The notes under the pieces are model-generated. The model was not told where the DNA came from, did no database searches, and was given only the letters and a program-made list of their open reading frames with translations. From Antrihabitans cavernicola (GTDB lineage: Bacteria > Actinomycetota > Actinomycetes > Mycobacteriales > Mycobacteriaceae), in NCBI RefSeq assembly GCF_008297975.1, contig NZ_VLNY01000005.1:248001-312000 (forward strand): a stretch of 64,000 nt of DNA, in the 5' to 3' direction. How positions within the stretch are numbered: position 1 is the stretch's first letter; every line of letters begins with the position of its first letter. Made by a program: the position numbers and the translations under genes. Positions 2,204-18,306 of the stretch are shown piece by piece.

Positions 2204-2661
2204 TTGGTCGGTAGCCGCTCGATCGAGTTGGCAGCCAACGCCTGCTCCACGTTGACCAGTCCGTCGCGGACCACGGCGCCGTAGGCGTCGTCTCCCAACA
2301 CGTCGACAACGGCGTGCGCGGACGCGAGATGCGCACGTGCGGAATCGAAGTCGCCGACGCGGCGGTAGCAGTCCGCGAGGTTCAAATGCAGCGACGGAAG
2401 AAAGCCGCGCACCGTCAGCGACGGGTGGTACGCCTGCGCGCGTGCGTCGGTGAGTTCGCCGGCGGCAGTCAGCGCCCTCTTGTCCCAGTCGAGCGCATCC
2501 TCAGGCGAGTCCTGCAGGTCGGCCAGATAGTGCGCGAGGGTGACGCGATGCAGCGGATCGCCGTCGTCGCCGATGTGCTCCCACAACGCAGCGAGCCGAT
2601 CGCGGCCGCCCTCCTTGTCGGACACCGCTGCGGTGATATCGGCCATCATCGGATCAGACAT
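2200..2661 (-). CDS. TPR-like small protein coupled to the MerR-clamp gene
   Basis: A 153-residue, soluble, Ala/Asp-rich, mainly helical protein. Helical pairs such as HLNLADCYRRVGDFDSARAHLASA (split across residues about 105-130) look like one or two tetratricopeptide repeats, a fold used for protein-protein contacts. I do not recognise a catalytic motif. Its ATG overlaps the last 8 bases of the upstream MerR-clamp gene, so the two are almost certainly translationally coupled and co-regulated. Its stop overlaps the convergent mannosidase stop. Function is unknown; a partner or modulator of the upstream regulator is only an inference from coupling. Confidence 0.7.
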   Translation of the reverse strand: MSDPMMADITAAVSDKEGGRDRLAALWEHIGDDGDPLHRVTLAHYLADLQDSPEDALDWDKRALTAAGELTDARAQAYHPSLTVRGFLPSLHLNLADCYRRVGDFDSARAHLASAHAVVDVLGDDAYGAVVRDGLVNVEQALAANSIERLPTN

Positions 2662-3640
2662 GTTCCCTTCCTTTCGGCTCTGCCGAACTGCGCCGTGGCA
2701 TCACCAGTGTTGTGAAATCGCCGTCTGTCGCGGATCGGACGACGACAGGTCGATCGGGTGCGCTGATGTCCAGCATCACGTCGGGGCCGATTCCGGCTGT
2801 CAGGGCTCGGCCGAGGGTTTCGGTATCGAAGTGGATCCGGGTGGAACCGTCGGCGGTGAGATCCAACGTGAGAGTTGCCCGACCTTGCATCGACGCCAGC
2901 AGTTCCGCGACAGGGCGCACGATTCGGTAGACGGGTTCGGCCAGCCCGGCGAACACCACTCGGTAGTCCGGGAATTCGCCCTCGATGACGCGACACGGTT
3001 GCCCGTCGACGTGCACGTCGGTGCCGATGGCGATGGTGACGACCTCTCGCTCACCGATCGCGGCGACCAGGTCGGCGGTACCGACAACTGCGGCCGCAGA
3101 GCCGCTGCTGTTCCGGGAGGGCAACGTGCGCGTCGACAGCCGGTATCGATCCGTCGCGGTGAGAATCAGTGCACCATCGCATATTTCGACGAAGACTCCG
3201 GCCAGAATCGGAAACGCCGGATCGGTGCCGATGGCGGCCGCCACCTGCACCACCGCCCGCGCCAACTCGACGCCGGAGACCGATACCGCCGCATCGACGG
3301 CCAGCAACCCGATCGCTCGCTCCGCGAGGTCCTTGGTACGCGCCAACCGGCTCTCCTCGTCGCTGACATGGGCAACGACCAGTTGCTGAGCCTCGCCGGT
3401 ATCGGCGTTCAGCACTCTCTTCACGTCGGCAAGTGGCAGCCCCATGTCGCGGAGGTGGCGAATCAGGATCGCCGCACGGACCTGAGCTGCGCTGTAGTAC
3501 CGATAGCCGCTCGTCGAATCCGTCTCGACAGGAGTCAGCACCCCGCTGTCGCCGTAGAACCGCAACGCACTCGGCGTCATCCCGCTCAGCTGGGCGAACA
3601 CCCCCACTGTCATCAACTCGTCTGCCACGCTCCCCATCAT
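2654..3640 (-). CDS. MerR-type regulator fused to DNA polymerase III beta-clamp-like domains
   Basis: Residues about 9-78 form a MerR winged helix (TVGVFAQLSGMTPSALRFY, then GYRYYS), followed by a short dimerisation-type helix. From about residue 120 to 320 the sequence follows clamp domains 2 and 3 of DnaN: PILAGVFVEI, TATDRYRLSTR, the EFPDYR loop, and near the end APDRPVVVR followed by TLVMPRR. Clamp domain 1 is absent and the MerR part takes its place. DnaN-like domains in MerR proteins occur elsewhere in actinobacteria as far as I recall, but the role is not established. Starts possible at ATG 3640, ATG 3637, GTG 3628 or ATG 3613; a promoter-like element at 3636-3666 would favour GTG 3628. 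The gene overlaps the next one by 8 bases and is divergent from udgB. Confidence 0.85.
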   Translation of the reverse strand: MMGSVADELMTVGVFAQLSGMTPSALRFYGDSGVLTPVETDSTSGYRYYSAAQVRAAILIRHLRDMGLPLADVKRVLNADTGEAQQLVVAHVSDEESRLARTKDLAERAIGLLAVDAAVSVSGVELARAVVQVAAAIGTDPAFPILAGVFVEICDGALILTATDRYRLSTRTLPSRNSSGSAAAVVGTADLVAAIGEREVVTIAIGTDVHVDGQPCRVIEGEFPDYRVVFAGLAEPVYRIVRPVAELLASMQGRATLTLDLTADGSTRIHFDTETLGRALTAGIGPDVMLDISAPDRPVVVRSATDGDFTTLVMPRRSSAEPKGREHV

Positions 3641-10398: not shown

Positions 10399-10683
10399 AT
10401 GGCACTGCTCACAGATTCCGAACTTTCCGACGGCCTCGCCGACTTGCCCGACTGGACGCGCTCCGGTGACAGCATCAGCCGCGCGATAGAGGCGCCCACG
10501 TTTCCCGACGCCATCGAGCTGGTTCGCAAGGTGGCCGACGAGGCAGAGACGGCTCAGCACCACCCTGACATCGATATTCGTTGGCGCACGGTGACATTCG
10601 TGCTGTCGACCCACTCCGACGGCGGTCTCACCGCAAAGGATCTGGCGCTGGCTGCGACGATCGATCGGCTCGCCGCGGGTTGA
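10399..10683 (+). CDS. phhB: pterin-4-alpha-carbinolamine dehydratase
   Basis: Dehydrates 4a-hydroxy-tetrahydropterin, recycling pterin cofactor; in bacteria without aromatic hydroxylases the role may lie in molybdopterin or other pterin handling. 94 residues, full length for PCD/DCoH. The signature is EAETAQHHPDIDIRWRTV, with the catalytic His pair and following His/Asp region. Its 3' end overlaps the convergent pimE by 56 bases, so the last residues of both proteins are encoded on opposite strands of the same DNA. Equivalent to Rv1159A by position. Confidence 0.92.
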   Translation: MALLTDSELSDGLADLPDWTRSGDSISRAIEAPTFPDAIELVRKVADEAETAQHHPDIDIRWRTVTFVLSTHSDGGLTAKDLALAATIDRLAAG

Positions 10684-11872
10684 CCCCGCGACCGACGTAG
10701 ATCACCCAGAGATAGAAACCGAGTACGCCGACCACGTACACGGTGCCGAGCCACGCCAACAGGCCTGGACGCGAGATCAACCAGATGGAGTCCTGGAAGA
10801 AACTCAGGATCCACGGCACCCCGACCAGCGTGGTGAGCAACCAATAGCCGGCCAGAATCTTGGTACCGAGCCGATCGCGATGCGGACCGTGCAGCAACCA
10901 GATCGCCATCGGGACCACCCACACCCAGTGGTGCGACCACGAGATCGGCGAAATCAGCAGCCCCAACAGCTGCACGATGACCAGCGTGCCCAACCTGTCG
11001 TCGTGATCGAGCGTCCGCCAGGCCAGCACCGCGAGCGCGGCGAAGATCAGCACGGCGGCGATCAGCAACGGCCCGTTTTCGACGTCATGGCCGACGATTC
11101 GACTCAGCGCCCCGCGCAGCGACTGATTCCACACCGATCCGACCGGCCCGATGCGGCTCGCGTCGCCGAGCAGATGCTCGAAATATTCGCGCGCCTGCGA
11201 ACCGATGATCAGATAACTGATGCCGACGGTGCCTGCGAAGACCACGGCGGACGCGAGTGCGGCCGCGAACCGTCGTCGCGCAAGGAAGTAGAGCCCGGTG
11301 ATCGCAGGCGTGAGCTTGATCCCCGCGATGAAGCCGACCAGAAATCCTGACAGCCACCAACGCGCACTACGGACCGCCACCATCGCGCCCAGGACCAGGA
11401 AGACGTTGACCTGGCCGTAGTCGAGCGTGGTTCGCACCGGCTCCGTCCACGTGCCGAACGCGGTCCACACCATGGCGATCGACCGCCAGCGCGTCGGGTC
11501 CTGCTTCACAACGGGTCCGAGCAGCAACTCGAGGCTGATTTTCACGACCGCATACAGGGCCGCAACGGTGAGCAACTGCCACACGATCCCGACCAGCGTG
11601 AACGGCAGGTAGTGCAGCGGCAGGAACACCAACGCCGCAAACGGCGGGTAGGTGAAGGGAAGCGGGAAGTCGGGCGTTTCCTTCGAGTACGTGTAGCTGT
11701 AGAGATCGCCGCGCAGCAACGATGCCGATCCGTCGACGTAGACGTGCAGGTCCACCAGATTCATGCCGTTGGCGGTCGACAACGACCACACCATTCGAGC
11801 ACCGACCGCCACCAGGAGCAGCAGAGGCGCGAGTCGTGTGAGCCGACTCACTACCGATGACTGCTGCTTCAC
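10628..11872 (-). CDS. pimE: alpha-1,2-mannosyltransferase PimE
   Basis: GT87 (GT-C) polytopic membrane enzyme that adds the fifth mannose to phosphatidylinositol mannosides from polyprenyl-phosphate mannose, on the outer face of the inner membrane. 414 residues with about ten hydrophobic spans. The first periplasmic loop carries NLVDLHVYVDG (Asp41 and Asp47), where PimE has its essential Asp. Later loops have the Tyr/Asp-rich WNQSLRGALSR and SPISWSHHW motifs of this family. The start is GTG. Overlap with phhB and proximity to mutT2 reproduce the mycobacterial locus, which supports the orthology. Confidence 0.92.
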   Translation of the reverse strand: MKQQSSVVSRLTRLAPLLLLVAVGARMVWSLSTANGMNLVDLHVYVDGSASLLRGDLYSYTYSKETPDFPLPFTYPPFAALVFLPLHYLPFTLVGIVWQLLTVAALYAVVKISLELLLGPVVKQDPTRWRSIAMVWTAFGTWTEPVRTTLDYGQVNVFLVLGAMVAVRSARWWLSGFLVGFIAGIKLTPAITGLYFLARRRFAAALASAVVFAGTVGISYLIIGSQAREYFEHLLGDASRIGPVGSVWNQSLRGALSRIVGHDVENGPLLIAAVLIFAALAVLAWRTLDHDDRLGTLVIVQLLGLLISPISWSHHWVWVVPMAIWLLHGPHRDRLGTKILAGYWLLTTLVGVPWILSFFQDSIWLISRPGLLAWLGTVYVVGVLGFYLWVIYVGRGVNPRRADRSSQPAPDPLR

Positions 11873-12186: not shown

Positions 12187-12954
12187 GTGCTTCGCACCCG
12201 AGGAACGCGCAAAGTTGTAACGGCACTTGCGATCGCAGCCGCTGCCGCAATCGTTGCGCCGACTACGGCCGCCGCCGACCAGGCCCCCACTCCGCCACCG
12301 GCTGTCCCGCAGGGCATTCCGGTCGACGCACTCGCTTCGCTGGCGCCCGCGATCATCGGCGCCGTTGCCGGTCCGGCGGACATCGCCGACGGCCCGCAGG
12401 CATCCCTGCTCGATCAGGCCAAGCAGATCCTGGCGACTGCCGACCTGCCGCCGCAGATCAAGACCACACTCGAAAGCGTCATCACGTTCCTGGACGGCAG
12501 CGGCGGCGGTGGCCCCGCATTGCCGAAGAACGGCCCCACGATCGCGCAGTTCCTGTACCCGACGATCGGTAAGGGCTGCATCTCCGACACCGCCGACTCG
12601 GTCGGTACCGCGCTGGCAGTTCCCGGCCCCGGCAAGTTGCCGCCCCCCGGACCGGGCGCAGGCCAGGCCGGCTTCGTCTTCACCGCGCTCGGCACCAAGC
12701 CCGCGACGCCCGATCAGGCCAACCCGATGACGGTGACCTGGTTGAACCTCGACAATCGTCGTTCGGCGACTCAGAACCTCACCGATGCAGCGAAGATCAA
12801 CCCGGACGGCCCGGCCACACTGTCGGCCATCGCAGACACCGGCCCCGGCCGCGTGGTTGCCGTGGTGTCCGGTTCGCTGACCACCGCCGCAGCGGATGCC
12901 GCACCGCGCACCTGCACATTCCTGCCGACGGTCGGGATGTTCGCAGTCGCATGA
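12187..12954 (+). CDS. secreted Ala/Pro-rich protein (Rv1157c/Rv1158c-like by position)
   Basis: 255 residues. A classical signal peptide (RTRGTRKVVTALAIAAAAAIVAPTTAAA, about residues 3-30) is followed by a Pro-rich segment APTPPPAVPQG, a helical middle, a Gly/Pro linker and a beta-rich C-terminal part with the motif TVTWLNLDN. Two cysteines (GKGCIS and PRTCTF) could form one disulfide in the exported protein. The start is GTG. Location next to pimE is that of the Ala/Pro-rich secreted proteins Rv1157c/Rv1158c, which have no known function. The protein at 63697 shares the signal-peptide style and a TWHNLD motif, so the two may be distant paralogues. Confidence 0.75.
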   Translation: MLRTRGTRKVVTALAIAAAAAIVAPTTAAADQAPTPPPAVPQGIPVDALASLAPAIIGAVAGPADIADGPQASLLDQAKQILATADLPPQIKTTLESVITFLDGSGGGGPALPKNGPTIAQFLYPTIGKGCISDTADSVGTALAVPGPGKLPPPGPGAGQAGFVFTALGTKPATPDQANPMTVTWLNLDNRRSATQNLTDAAKINPDGPATLSAIADTGPGRVVAVVSGSLTTAAADAAPRTCTFLPTVGMFAVA

Positions 12955-12965
12955 CGGCGACCGTC

Positions 12966-13631
12966 TCATTCGGCGGTCGGTACCTCGAAACGTTGCAATC
13001 CTGTCGTCAGGAATGACACGAACGCGTCTTCGAGTTCAGGCAGCTCGGCGGTGCGACCGTCGGCGACATAGCGGTAGAACAGTTCCAGACACCCGCCGAC
13101 GAGCGCCAGATAGGTGTTGTCGGTTGCGGGTGGGCTACCACTCATCCGATGCCAGCTGCGCATGGTGGCCGCGAGAGTATCCAAGTACTCGTTCCGCAAT
13201 CGAACTGCGGCCGGCCCTGCTCCGGGCAACTCCAGCGTCCACGCCCTGGTGAATTCGGGCTCGCTCGCCGCAACCCGCAGATACTCGCGCATCGCCGCCC
13301 TGACCACAGCCGACCAGTCGTGCGACGCCGCGCCATCGGCGGCGGTGACGACCTGCCGAAGCACACTGTCGCGGCCCGCGCCGACGGCAGCGAGGAAACA
13401 CGCTTCCTTGGTAGGAAACTGCTCGTAGAACGCCGCGCGCGCCACCCGCGCGCGGGTGACTATGTCGGCGACCGTCGTCGCGGAGTAGCCGACTTCGGCG
13501 ATCGCTGAGATCGCAGCCCGCAACAGTCGTGGACGTTGCGCCTCTCGGACCTGTTCTCGATCGAGCCTGCCGCGCCCGCGCGGTAAACCCGGCGCATCCG
13601 CCGGAAACGTCCCCGCCAGATCGTTGCCCAT
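12966..13631 (-). CDS. TetR-family transcriptional regulator
   Basis: 221 residues. The N-terminal HTH is typical: LRAAISAIAEVGYSATTVADIVTRARVARAAFYEQF at about residues 37-75, with a Tyr/Phe-rich end. A Pro/Gly/Arg-rich leader of 30 residues precedes it; a later start is possible. The C-terminal ligand domain is not assignable to a known effector class. It is divergent from the cytochrome P450 gene, and the gap contains a perfect palindrome (13743-13754), so it probably represses itself and the P450. Confidence 0.88.
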   Translation of the reverse strand: MGNDLAGTFPADAPGLPRGRGRLDREQVREAQRPRLLRAAISAIAEVGYSATTVADIVTRARVARAAFYEQFPTKEACFLAAVGAGRDSVLRQVVTAADGAASHDWSAVVRAAMREYLRVAASEPEFTRAWTLELPGAGPAAVRLRNEYLDTLAATMRSWHRMSGSPPATDNTYLALVGGCLELFYRYVADGRTAELPELEDAFVSFLTTGLQRFEVPTAE

Positions 13632-13742
13632 GCCAACTCACCTTCCGCCGCGCTCTCGCACCCATCTTGGACGATCCGGACGACCTTCTTGCCGCCGGGT
13701 CCTTGACAGCGAGAGGGCGCGCTGACACAGTTCTAACAAAGA

Positions 13743-13754
13743 AACGTATACGTT
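13743..13754. promoter_or_regulatory. putative TetR operator AACGTATACGTT
   Basis: A perfect 12-bp palindrome, with near-symmetric flanks (AAAGAA on the left, TTCTTT on the right), lies 35 bases before the P450 ATG. The central TATACG could also serve as a -10 box with TGACAC (13723-13728) as -35, so a bound repressor would block the P450 promoter. Another TTGACA is at 13703-13708. Confidence 0.5.
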
Positions 13755-13788
13755 CTTTTATAAATTTCTTCCGAGCGAGGGAGCTCTG

Positions 13789-15156
13789 ATGGCCGTGGAA
13801 AGTACCGCCGACAAGACCAAGCCGCGCCAGGCGACAATCCAGTTGCGGGATCTGCCGCGACCACCGATTCATTCCGCTGTCGGATTCGCGGCTTTCTGGG
13901 CTGATCCGGAGTTCGCGCGCAAGCAGTTCGACGTTCGCGGGGATCGGATGGTGGTCGATCTGCCGTTATTGCCGACAATGCTCTTCACCGCGGTTCCCGA
14001 GGACGCGAAAGCGGTCTTCACCCAGGTCGACAGCGGGTTGCGCCTCGGTGAGGCGCTGCGTCGGCTCGCACCGCACGAGATGCTCTTCGGCCGCGAAATG
14101 ATCGACTGGTGGAACGGGGCCAATCACGCCAAGCTGCGCAAGAAAGTGGCGCCGGCTTTCAACGGAGCCGCCCTGCGCGGTTACGAGGAAGCGATGGTCG
14201 ACGCCGCGAAGCGACGCGTGGACGAGTGGCCTGTCGGGGAGCCGGTCCGCTTCACGCGACAGATGAAAACGCTCGCGCGCGACGTGATCATGTCGGTCGT
14301 GTTCGGTGTGACCGAGGGCGATCGGCGGGACCGACTGGAACAGGCATTGATCGACCTCGACCGGGCGATCGCCTCCAACGGAATGCGCACCCGGTACGTA
14401 GCCGCGATTCTCAGCGGCGGCCGGTGGCCCCGCTACACCGCGATGCGAGAGATCAGCGCCCGCATCGACGCGGTGACTTTGGAAGAAATCGCCTTCCGGC
14501 GGGCGAACCCCAGCCCGGTCCAGCGAAAGGACTGCCTGGCGATCTTCCTCGAACTGGCGGAAGACGACCCGGAGAACCTGCTCTCCGATCAGATGATCGC
14601 GGTGTTTCAGCGAATGTTGCTCATCGCCGGCTACGAAACGACAGCGGTCACTCTCGCCTGGGTCGCGGAGCGGCTTGTTCGCCACCCCGAGGTGATGGCC
14701 ACCCTCGACCAGAGCTTGGCAGCCGGTGCTGACGACTACCTCGACGCCGTCATCACCGAGACCATGCGGATACGGCCTGCCCTCCCTGTGACGATGCGCT
14801 ACGCCGAGAAAGACGTCGACATCAACGGCTTACGCGTGCCGAAGGGCACCATCGTGATGCTTTACATCAACGCGATCCAGAAACGCGAGGAGTTCTACCC
14901 GAATCCGGACGAGTTCGATCCCGACCGGTTCCTCGGGGTCCGACCCGACCCCCACCGATGGTTGCCCTTCGGCGGCGGTGCCCATCGCTGCCTCGCCGCG
15001 AACTTCGCGATGTTCGAATCACGAGTCCTGCTGCGCACGATCCTCACGCACCGCCGACTGCTACCCGACGCCGGCGCCGGTGAACGCCAAGATCAACATC
15101 GCAACATCCTGCTCACCCCGCATCGAGGAGCAACCGTCACCTTGGCGCATCGCTGA
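13789..15156 (+). CDS. cytochrome P450
   Basis: Heme-thiolate monooxygenase, 455 residues, soluble bacterial class needing ferredoxin and reductase encoded elsewhere. The I-helix oxygen-activation motif is AGYETT (280-285), the ExxR pair lies in ETMRIRP, and the heme loop is FGGGAHRCLA with Cys401. Substrate is not deducible; the general layout resembles the CYP102-N/CYP110-like clades with a short N-terminus and no membrane anchor. It has its own TetR regulator upstream and no redox partner next to it. The ATG has GAGGGAGC about 5 bases upstream. Confidence 0.92.
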   Translation: MAVESTADKTKPRQATIQLRDLPRPPIHSAVGFAAFWADPEFARKQFDVRGDRMVVDLPLLPTMLFTAVPEDAKAVFTQVDSGLRLGEALRRLAPHEMLFGREMIDWWNGANHAKLRKKVAPAFNGAALRGYEEAMVDAAKRRVDEWPVGEPVRFTRQMKTLARDVIMSVVFGVTEGDRRDRLEQALIDLDRAIASNGMRTRYVAAILSGGRWPRYTAMREISARIDAVTLEEIAFRRANPSPVQRKDCLAIFLELAEDDPENLLSDQMIAVFQRMLLIAGYETTAVTLAWVAERLVRHPEVMATLDQSLAAGADDYLDAVITETMRIRPALPVTMRYAEKDVDINGLRVPKGTIVMLYINAIQKREEFYPNPDEFDPDRFLGVRPDPHRWLPFGGGAHRCLAANFAMFESRVLLRTILTHRRLLPDAGAGERQDQHRNILLTPHRGATVTLAHR

Positions 15157-15236
15157 GAGAGGGCGGTCGCGTCCATCGGTGACGACGAGTCGCGATTTCC
15201 GGCCATCGACTCGGTTGGGCTGTGGTAGACCGAGGA

Positions 15237-15575
15237 ATGGCCGTCAACAGCCGATCGAAAAAGTCCGCGCATTCGCACAGGTCGATATTGTCGATTCGCT
15301 CCGAAGGTTCGATCCTGTCCATCGGATCCGCCTATTCGGTGCTCTCCATCGGCAGTGTCGGATCGGTGCTGTCCATCGGCTCGGTGGGATCCTTCGGGTC
15401 AGCCCTGTCGTCCGCGTCGTTCGCCAGTCTGGGATCCGCGTTCTCCGGAAGGTCGCGCTGGTCGCTGCTGTCGTGGCAGGGCGAAAAGACCGCGCCGCAG
15501 CCCCGTCCGGCGCTGTACGTCGTGCCGGACGAGGCCGAGCCCGACGAAGCCGGGATGTATCACGTCCAGACGTGA
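15237..15575 (+). CDS. protein with serine at every third residue (Ser-x-x repeat)
   Basis: 112 residues. From Ser7 to Ser79 every third residue is serine: 25 serines in strict register, with the two residues between drawn from I, L, V, G and A. Nine-residue units such as SILSIGSAY and SVLSIGSVG are recognisable within this. An acidic tail (VVPDEAEPDEAGMYHVQT) follows. No signal peptide or membrane span is seen. A strict triplet suggests a regular rod: a three-sided solenoid or polyproline-II-type bundle. ATG 15237 is assumed; GTG 15222 is the alternative. The family is not known to me beyond similar unnamed actinobacterial proteins. It converges on the 29-residue ORF and the DUF1906 gene. 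Confidence 0.7.
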   Translation: MAVNSRSKKSAHSHRSILSIRSEGSILSIGSAYSVLSIGSVGSVLSIGSVGSFGSALSSASFASLGSAFSGRSRWSLLSWQGEKTAPQPRPALYVVPDEAEPDEAGMYHVQT

Positions 15576-15684: not shown

Positions 15685-16437
15685 TCACCACTGCCCGTAG
15701 TCGGGCTTCAAGATCACGTTCAGATCGACACCGACGCCGTCGACGCTGTGCTGATCGATCTGGTGCTGATGCAGGTTCGCGTCCGGGTGGACGTAGCCCT
15801 CCGGCGTGCCCCAATCGTGTTGCCAGAAGAACGAACCCAGGCCCGCGAGCCGAGCCAGGTTGATCGTTCCTGAGTTCGCGTAGACACCCAGATTGGTATC
15901 GCCGACCACGCCCTGCCAGCCGAGGAGGTAGGGGGCGATCATGGTGGCGAACTCGATCGTGGTCGGATTGTCGTCGATGGATGCGTAGATCGGCTTGTTG
16001 TCCGGCCCGCCCGCAGCGCGGTGCAGTTCCAGCCCGCGAGCGGCGTGCTTCTTGCCCGCCTCCAGCCCACCGCGCCAGTCGGCGGTCGGCCCCTTGCCGT
16101 ACTGGTAGCAGGAGACCACGGACAGACCGGCGGCCTGCAGTGCTTCCGCCTCACCCGCGAGCATCGGTTTTCCGGTCATCCATTCCGCGCCCTTGCGGCG
16201 GTCCGAAACGTACCGAATGGCGCCGGCGTATCCGGCGTCCTTGATCGCAGCTGCCGATGGAACGCCACCCGCGTAGTCGATCAGCGTCCCGAGATCCGAA
16301 TCTGCTTGCGCAACAACCGACCTGGAGCCGATCGCACTCAAGCCCAACGCGCACGAGCCTGCCGCCGCGTACCTGAACAAGCTTCGCCGGGATACCTGCA
16401 CGTGCAACCTCGCATCGCTGTCGGTTGGTCGACACAC
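15685..16437 (-). CDS. Tat-exported DUF1906 glycoside-hydrolase-like protein (Rv2525c-like)
   Basis: 250 residues. A twin-arginine signal SRRSLFRYAAAG leads into a hydrophobic stretch and an AQA cleavage region. The mature part is the DUF1906 TIM-barrel domain, GTLIDYAGGVPSAAAIKDAG at its start, with IRYVSDRRKGAEW, SCYQYGK and YASIDDNP as acidic-rich strand ends that may form the active site. Family members act, or are thought to act, on the cell wall outside the membrane; the M. tuberculosis homologue Rv2525c is a Tat substrate. Starts: GTG 16437 with GGAAGG 7 bases upstream, or GTG 16401 with GAGG 6 bases upstream. GTAACA boxes upstream hint at MtrA-type control. Confidence 0.85.
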   Translation of the reverse strand: MCRPTDSDARLHVQVSRRSLFRYAAAGSCALGLSAIGSRSVVAQADSDLGTLIDYAGGVPSAAAIKDAGYAGAIRYVSDRRKGAEWMTGKPMLAGEAEALQAAGLSVVSCYQYGKGPTADWRGGLEAGKKHAARGLELHRAAGGPDNKPIYASIDDNPTTIEFATMIAPYLLGWQGVVGDTNLGVYANSGTINLARLAGLGSFFWQHDWGTPEGYVHPDANLHQHQIDQHSVDGVGVDLNVILKPDYGQW

Positions 16438-17005: not shown

Positions 17006-18139
17006 CTAGGCGCTGGCGATGCGCGCAGCGACATCCACCGTTCGCGAAGAGCGGTCTCTGGTCTGATTGTTGACCTCCGCGGCGACCTGCTCGCGAATCT
17101 GCTTCTTCACGCCGCCGATCAACCCCAGCACCGACGCGCTCAGCCCCTTGGACTTCAGCTCCACGTCGACGTCGTCCGGATCCACCTGGGCAACGTCGAC
17201 CACGATCTGCAGCGGCTCGGCGGCGCGAGCGGTCAGCACCAACGGAATCGCAATATCGGCCTTGTAGTTGTTGTCGCGGGCAATCGAGATGACCAGATCG
17301 AGGTCGAGGGGAACGGTCAGGTCGAACTCGACCGGGTTGTCCGACCGAGGGTCGGTACGCGGCGCGCGAACGGCGCCGTCGGCGCTCACCGACGCCATGT
17401 CTCCCGGCCCGGTTTTGAGTGGACCGATCTCGATTTTGCGACCTGCGAGATCCTTCGCACCTTCGGAAATGCGAGCTTGCGTCACCGCATGCTGGAAGAA
17501 CCGAGTGCCGAACTCCTCGTAGGTGATCCAGTCGAAGGTGGTGTTGGTGGAGCGCTGTTCACCGTTGTCGTCGATTCTCGCTCCGATATCGAACACTCGG
17601 CCGCGTACGGACGCGGGATCGGACAGCATCGCGTTCAACCGGTTGGCAACCTCGAAGCGCACGATCCGCCCGATCGGTTCGAGCAACCATTCCCACGCCG
17701 CGCCCAACGCTTCGGCACGGACCACCAACTTCACGTCGTCGTGCGTCACCTTCGGAATGTCGATGACGATCAGCAACGGCGCCGCGGCCCGCGCGGACAG
17801 CTCGAGGTTTATCTCCACGCTGGCTTCGATGCGGACCTGCTGACCGAAGCGCAGCGACAACACCAGCGACGCCGGAACCATCAGATCGAACCGGACGTCG
17901 TCACCGTCACGCCGCGAGATCGTCGGCTTCCCGATAGTGCCCTCGGCGACGATCCCCGCGATGCCACCGGGCCCGATCTTGGACGGCCCGATCTTCATGC
18001 CCTTACCGGCCATACCGGCGACCGCTGCCGCGATGCGGTCGGTAGTCACCGCTTCGACGAAGAACCGTCGACCGAAATCCTCGTAGCTGATCCAGGTCAG
18101 CTCACTCGGTTGATCCTCGACGACGTTCGATTCGGTCAT
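17006..18139 (-). CDS. internally duplicated beta-rich protein, function unknown
   Basis: 377 residues built from two similar halves, about 16-190 and 204-377. Matching blocks: WISYEDFGRRFF / WITYEEFGTRFF, IGPSKIGPGGIAG / IGPLKTGPGDMAS, FDLMVPASLVLSL / FDLTVPLDLDLVI, and ARAAAPLLIVIDIPKV / ARAAEPLQIVVDVAQV. The alternation of long beta strands with a terminal amphipathic helix resembles lipid-binding TULIP/SMP modules, but that is inference. No signal peptide or membrane span. ATG 18139 is chosen because MTESNVVEDQ precedes the first repeat; the 12 upstream codons have no support. Nearest neighbours give no pathway. Confidence 0.7.
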   Translation of the reverse strand: MTESNVVEDQPSELTWISYEDFGRRFFVEAVTTDRIAAAVAGMAGKGMKIGPSKIGPGGIAGIVAEGTIGKPTISRRDGDDVRFDLMVPASLVLSLRFGQQVRIEASVEINLELSARAAAPLLIVIDIPKVTHDDVKLVVRAEALGAAWEWLLEPIGRIVRFEVANRLNAMLSDPASVRGRVFDIGARIDDNGEQRSTNTTFDWITYEEFGTRFFQHAVTQARISEGAKDLAGRKIEIGPLKTGPGDMASVSADGAVRAPRTDPRSDNPVEFDLTVPLDLDLVISIARDNNYKADIAIPLVLTARAAEPLQIVVDVAQVDPDDVDVELKSKGLSASVLGLIGGVKKQIREQVAAEVNNQTRDRSSRTVDVAARIASA

Positions 18140-18306
18140 GGTCGGCCACGGCCCCTTTACCCTGCGACGATGCAAGCGGCTCTACCATACGCGGCGCCCA
18201 CCGCCAGCCCGCCGAAAGCGCACTTGCTGTCGCAAACATCGAGTGGAATCGCAACAAGTGCGCACTCGACGAATGACGGAGGACCTCGGAAGCAGTTGAG
18301 CCCGGA

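Follow-up and report, generated by a model that had tools for sequence, protein, structure and literature searches.

The open reading frame at positions 15237-15575 (+) of the window, by which we mean the whole stretch of 64,000 nucleotides of Antrihabitans cavernicola DNA analysed here, is a real gene. It starts with ATG, encodes 112 residues plus a stop and has homologues in other genomes; its core, with Ser at every third residue, is under strong purifying selection, as judged from the aligned coding sequences. The earlier note on this DNA, which had singled out the Ser spacing, is partly supported, but it overlooked the nine-residue unit into which the Ser triplets are organized. We propose, with a probability of about 0.38, that the product is a small structural protein, probably translated from a leaderless mRNA, which is not exported and associates with itself at the cytoplasmic side of the cell membrane.

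All 25 register positions from Ser7 to Ser79, in steps of three, are indeed Ser, as had been claimed, and two extra Ser (residues 5 and 59) lie outside the register. The longest every-third Ser run in 20,000 shuffles of the residues was 9, versus 25 in the real protein, and a scan of all frames of the window revealed no second run of at least six in-register Ser. The protein is built in blocks, all on the + strand: a basic, fast-evolving head (residues 1-15, 15237-15281), the Ser-x-x repeat core (residues 16-79, 15282-15473), a W-S-L-L-S-W motif (residues 75-80, 15459-15476) and an acidic tail ending in HVQT (residues 81-112, 15477-15572). The same layout, with a nearly charge-free core of about 48 residues followed by W-S-x-x-S-W, is found in 42 aligned Nocardiaceae rows, where the median net charges are +5 (head, before the SEGS motif), 0 (core) and -4 (tail). 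D, E, K, R and H are absent from 37/42 of these cores and occur once in the other five; the core of the window protein has one such residue. The motif [WF]-S-x-x-[SATK]-W is present in 42/42 rows and a C-terminal H-x-Q-[T/S] in 40/42. The acidic tail noticed earlier is present in the window protein, with a net charge of -4 past the last Trp. The description of the pairs between the Ser as small or aliphatic holds for the middle of the repeat; it fails at the start (KK, AH, HR) and for IR, EG, AY, GR and RW. Inspection of the window protein by eye revealed no signal peptide.

The pairs between the Ser cycle as IL, IG and VG, so that the unit is the nonapeptide S-h-L-S-h-G-S-h-G. Identity of the residue preceding Ser at a lag of three triplets is 0.43 versus 0.23 in shuffled sequences for the 42 Nocardiaceae, and 0.62 versus 0.30 for 18 others; at a lag of two triplets it is 0.25 versus 0.22. 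Furthermore, the register is preserved through length changes in 70/70 distinct cores, with Ser at 1362/1366 register positions. The true length changes are -9 residues in 13 cores and +6 in one, the single 68-residue core being an anchor match that lies further upstream and not an insertion. A Nocardia subgroup (L049, L050, L051, L060 and others) has cores shorter by exactly nine residues, which make up 13 distinct cores, and a longer, Ser-rich basic head. In a sister group (L015, L016 and L017) the repeats are more regular, of the GSI/GSA type, and the proteins share a C-terminal FGxVFGxPVA, which is the part that AlphaFold2 begins to fold in L015.

The residue chosen at the register positions is nearly invariant. 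In 114 distinct proteins, a set from which those with long plain SVG/SAG/GSV repeats were left out, 2179 of 2204 flanked register positions are Ser. The 25 others are Ala (12), Cys (6), Gly (4), Leu (2) and Asn (1), and these exceptions are not independent, as 8 of the 12 Ala correspond to one site in the basic head. Since the relatives were found through Ser-rich peptide patterns, Ser is favoured in the two stretches covered by these patterns. A single base change would turn any TCN codon into a Thr codon, yet Thr occupies none of the exceptional positions. Likewise, the relatives from the genus g54 (probably Streptomyces) have 513 flanked Ser against 2 Cys and 2 Gly, in a count that overlaps the 114-protein set in two genomes. 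Replacement of Ser by Ala, Cys or Gly, and never by Thr, points to a tight packing role of the register in these sequences, and not to glycosylation, phosphorylation or ice binding. The binding of ice, glycan or phosphate and the heavy phosphorylation or glycosylation suggested in the earlier note are thus disfavoured, both by this absence of Thr and by that of a visible signal peptide.

Selection acts on the protein repeat. In the 42 Nocardiaceae rows the median dN/dS is 0.15 for the repeat, 0.74 for the head and 0.50 for the tail (medians restricted to pairs with dS of 0.05-1.5: 431, 853 and 608 of 861). The earlier note had stated that a frame not conserved in homologues, or a spacing due to a codon or DNA repeat, would speak against its reading. 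The frame is open in 42/42 rows and the five other frames in 7-30/42; two of the latter are frequently open (30/42 and 15/42). Both Ser codon families, TCN and AGY, are used in 7 of the 21 columns in which Ser reaches 90% or more. A chance or DNA-repeat origin was rejected from the shuffles, the codon mix and the dN/dS, and a phage or plasmid origin because no match was found.

A search for such proteins in related genomes, which had been recommended, revealed homologues across the Nocardiaceae and beyond. Matches were obtained in 18/61 genomes; at the family level in 137/401, some of them weak; and at the phylum level in 38/396, where many of the matches are weak or represent simple repeats. 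G024 belongs to a genus, probably Nocardia, in which 73/78 genomes match and 5/78 do not; in g54 the corresponding numbers are 30/81 and 51/81. Two of the three other genomes of the window's own genus carry the gene; the third has no match at the threshold used. A scan of named genomes yielded 345 relatives, and the best 80 were retained; these come from Nocardia, Rhodococcus, Prescottella, Aldersonia, Skermania and Antrihabitans. Some relatives come from species growing at body temperature.

The g54 relatives differ at their C-terminus. Among the best 25 of the 30 matches (the five weakest were left out), the hydropathy of the C-terminal 17 residues exceeds 1.55 in 24, a line lowered from 1.6 after a value of 1.59 appeared (23/25 at 1.6), whereas the 42 Nocardiaceae proteins reach at most 0.54. 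The Nocardiaceae proteins thus have an acidic tail where the g54 relatives carry a hydrophobic segment. The one exception among the 25 contains a withheld stretch. The last 12 residues are net basic in 21/25 and the Trp motif is present in 14/25.

The window protein passes no family cut-off in Pfam, NCBIfam, PHROGs or PADLOC. A single-sequence search of the PDB gave weak matches (best E 0.085), and a profile search hit (E 0.0004 and weaker) artificial linkers of the TGS type and low-complexity stretches, which we take as chance. A literature search on the repeat idea and its peptides found no paper on the window protein.

Five nucleotides before the ATG lies an extended -10-like box, TGTGGTAGACC (15221-15231, +). 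A TGNGNTANANY box is located 5-7 nt upstream of an in-frame start in 67/84 distinct Nocardiaceae loci, with the exact TGTGGTAGACC in 56 of these 67. The extended -10 element of corynebacteria resembles this box. Because of this resemblance and of its proximity to the ATG, the mRNA of the repeat gene is probably leaderless, as far as can be read from the sequence. Each of six genomes contains one copy of the box followed by a start, which lies at the repeat gene in 5/6, and a reversed control pattern was found 0 to 2 times per genome in these six; a regulon with a common promoter box was rejected on these counts. A leader peptide sensing Ser or branched-chain amino acids was rejected by argument, as the protein is too long, its tail is conserved and the downstream neighbour is on the opposite strand.

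The genes around the repeat gene are conserved in the Nocardiaceae. When the ORFs of five reference loci were compared by blastp with the 80 loci, counting matches anywhere in a locus, some loci being cut by contig ends, an Rv1157c-family ORF was found in 80/80, an Rv2525c-like ORF in 78/80, a 94-residue ORF, which we take to be a pterin dehydratase, in 78/80, a GT87 mannosyltransferase in 76/80 and a 388-residue ORF without family in 62/80. The window carries part of this set: a PimE-like gene (10628-11872, -), the Rv1157c-family gene upstream (12187-12954, +; NF050168, 191 bits for a cut-off of 70; 72% identical to the L022 neighbour), the Rv2525c-like gene downstream, which encodes a glycoside-hydrolase-like protein (15685-16437, -; PF08924, E 7.8e-43; 76% identical to the L041 neighbour), and, further downstream, the gene of a 389-residue protein (17006-18175, -), the counterpart of the 388-residue ORF, which matches nothing in NCBIfam and no Pfam family above its cut-off. 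In the window, the Rv1157c-family gene and the repeat gene are separated by a TetR gene (-) and a P450 gene (+), at 12966-15156; in L022 (A. stalactiti) 50 bases lie between them. No shared neighbour was seen, by eye, for the relatives outside the Nocardiaceae in the gene lists of 17 regions, two of which are from Nocardiaceae. Elsewhere in the window, one ORF (2654-3640, -) combines MerR-type HTH and DNA polymerase III beta-clamp-like domains (PF13411, PF02767, PF00712).

Structure prediction gave poor models. For the window protein (57 sequences) AlphaFold2 reached a mean pLDDT of 47.5 and a pTM of 0.12 and predicted no helix; for L015, the more regular relative (3 sequences), the values were 36.6 and 0.15, with one C-terminal helix. 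The repeats of both proteins were left without secondary structure, and the triangular solenoid or polyproline-II bundle that had been predicted from the Ser spacing is unsupported by these models. They give no confident picture of stacked beta-strand coils. Such models suggest that the repeat on its own is disordered, or else that it folds only within an assembly beyond the reach of the method, and the failure is compatible with an oligomeric fold. Three hydropathy scales disagree on the core: membrane insertion is unfavourable on one (best value of the window protein +4.1), favourable around the Trp motif on a second (-1.7 for the window protein) and borderline on a third (1.57); on a 45-residue aggregation score, 8 of the 56 predicted genes of the window exceed the repeat protein.

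How could such a protein work? In the structural protein that we propose, Ser would serve as a small packing residue, its face lying against neighbouring chains or coils, and the beta-branched residues and Leu would line the outside, where they could touch lipid or make lateral contacts. In the Nocardiaceae form, attachment to the membrane may be provided by the basic head together with the Trp motif, and the tail may present a recognition peptide to a partner. We infer assembly of the repeat protein; the link to the membrane is drawn because of the hydrophobic anchor of the g54 relatives and of the envelope type of the neighbours (PimE-like mannosyltransferase, Rv1157c family, Rv2525c-like), which count in favour of a location at the membrane surface. 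The absence of an AlphaFold2 structure, the split between hydropathy scales, the lack of a shared neighbour outside the Nocardiaceae and the fact that the gene is not universal count against our proposal. More tentatively still, the Ser-nonapeptide core could be a new kind of assembly, in which coils or chains with a pitch of three residues pack through Ser faces that leave no room for Thr, point their aliphatic faces outward and build up oligomers or fibrils along the inner face of the membrane in actinobacteria; one lineage would fix them there with a tail anchor, another with the basic head and Trp motif.

Several other explanations have to be weighed. The repeat could have neither fold nor assembly and act as a flexible spacer, disordered and of low complexity, that connects the basic head with the acidic tail. 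The low pLDDT of both models, the lack of secondary structure and the Ser/Gly-rich composition are what such a spacer would give. However, spacers of this kind rarely keep a register, here kept in every distinct core, their core would not be expected to be so much more constrained than both ends, and the aliphatic core is unlike usual disordered segments; we regard this explanation as doubtful. It is scarcely credible that the protein is an artefact, a translated DNA repeat or a wrong frame: two other frames are often open and some phylum-level matches are plainly simple repeats, but the low dN/dS of the core, the mixed Ser codons and the conservation of start, box and neighbours all speak against it.

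The 25 Ser in register could also form a substrate for dense modification, by phosphorylation, O-glycosylation or maturase crosslinking as in the His-Xaa-Ser and TVGG systems, and L015 is weakly similar to NF038313 (E 1.4e-7, 32.3 bits for a cut-off of 55), being the best relative scanned; the window protein scores 13.5 bits. This is improbable, as Ser is never replaced by Thr, no gene for a radical-SAM enzyme was noticed among the conserved neighbours, and an HxsB-type enzyme (TIGR03978) passed the cut-off in 0/14 genomes, with no match in G000, in a search confined to HxsB in which the 14 controls gave none over the cut-off either. To a folded, Ser-faced solenoid binding ice, glycan or phosphate, as the earlier note proposed, we give little credence. 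Its strict short period and nine-residue superperiod would suit it, but AlphaFold2 gives no confident fold, Thr, which is usual on ice-binding faces, is missing from the register, no signal peptide was seen by eye and some relatives come from species growing at body temperature.

If the core folds or assembles, none of the families searched describes its design, a short-period repeat in which Ser occupies the site taken by Gly in collagen, and the strictness with which Ser is preferred to Thr allows the idea to be tested directly by mutation. A core that does not fold would be an uncommon example of a segment that looks disordered and whose register selection keeps perfect. In both cases, it belongs to a conserved protein encoded near envelope genes in Nocardia and Rhodococcus.

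Membership of the WXG100, collagen, RTX and Hxs groups was rejected. WxG is present in 36/42 Nocardiaceae proteins, followed by YxxxD/E in only 2/42, and no helix is predicted. The regularity is collagen-like, as had been noted, in its strict three-residue period and in nothing beyond it: Ser holds the fixed place, Gly occupies 38% of the positions before Ser in the 42 Nocardiaceae, and PF01391 touches only L015, below cut-off. Left-handed beta-helix hexapeptide proteins differ in their six-residue period, which is missing here. RTX nonapeptide proteins, of consensus GGxGxDxUx, likewise repeat every nine residues and combine Gly with one larger aliphatic residue; unlike them, the repeat core has no Asp, hence no RTX calcium-binding consensus, and the protein shows no sign of export. 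The His-Xaa-Ser protein HxsA4 (NF038313) also has Ser in a tripeptide repeat, together with the weak profile similarity, but the window protein has no His between residues 15 and 108. TvgA (PMC9062424) is a TVGG-repeat peptide modified by a radical-SAM enzyme; it shares a short-period repeat of small and beta-branched residues, and differs by this enzyme, of which no equivalent was noticed beside the repeat gene. Finally, the acidic tail of the window protein and the low C-terminal hydropathy of its Nocardiaceae relatives are unlike small tail-anchored membrane proteins, which the g54 relatives, with their hydrophobic C-terminal segment and basic end, do resemble.
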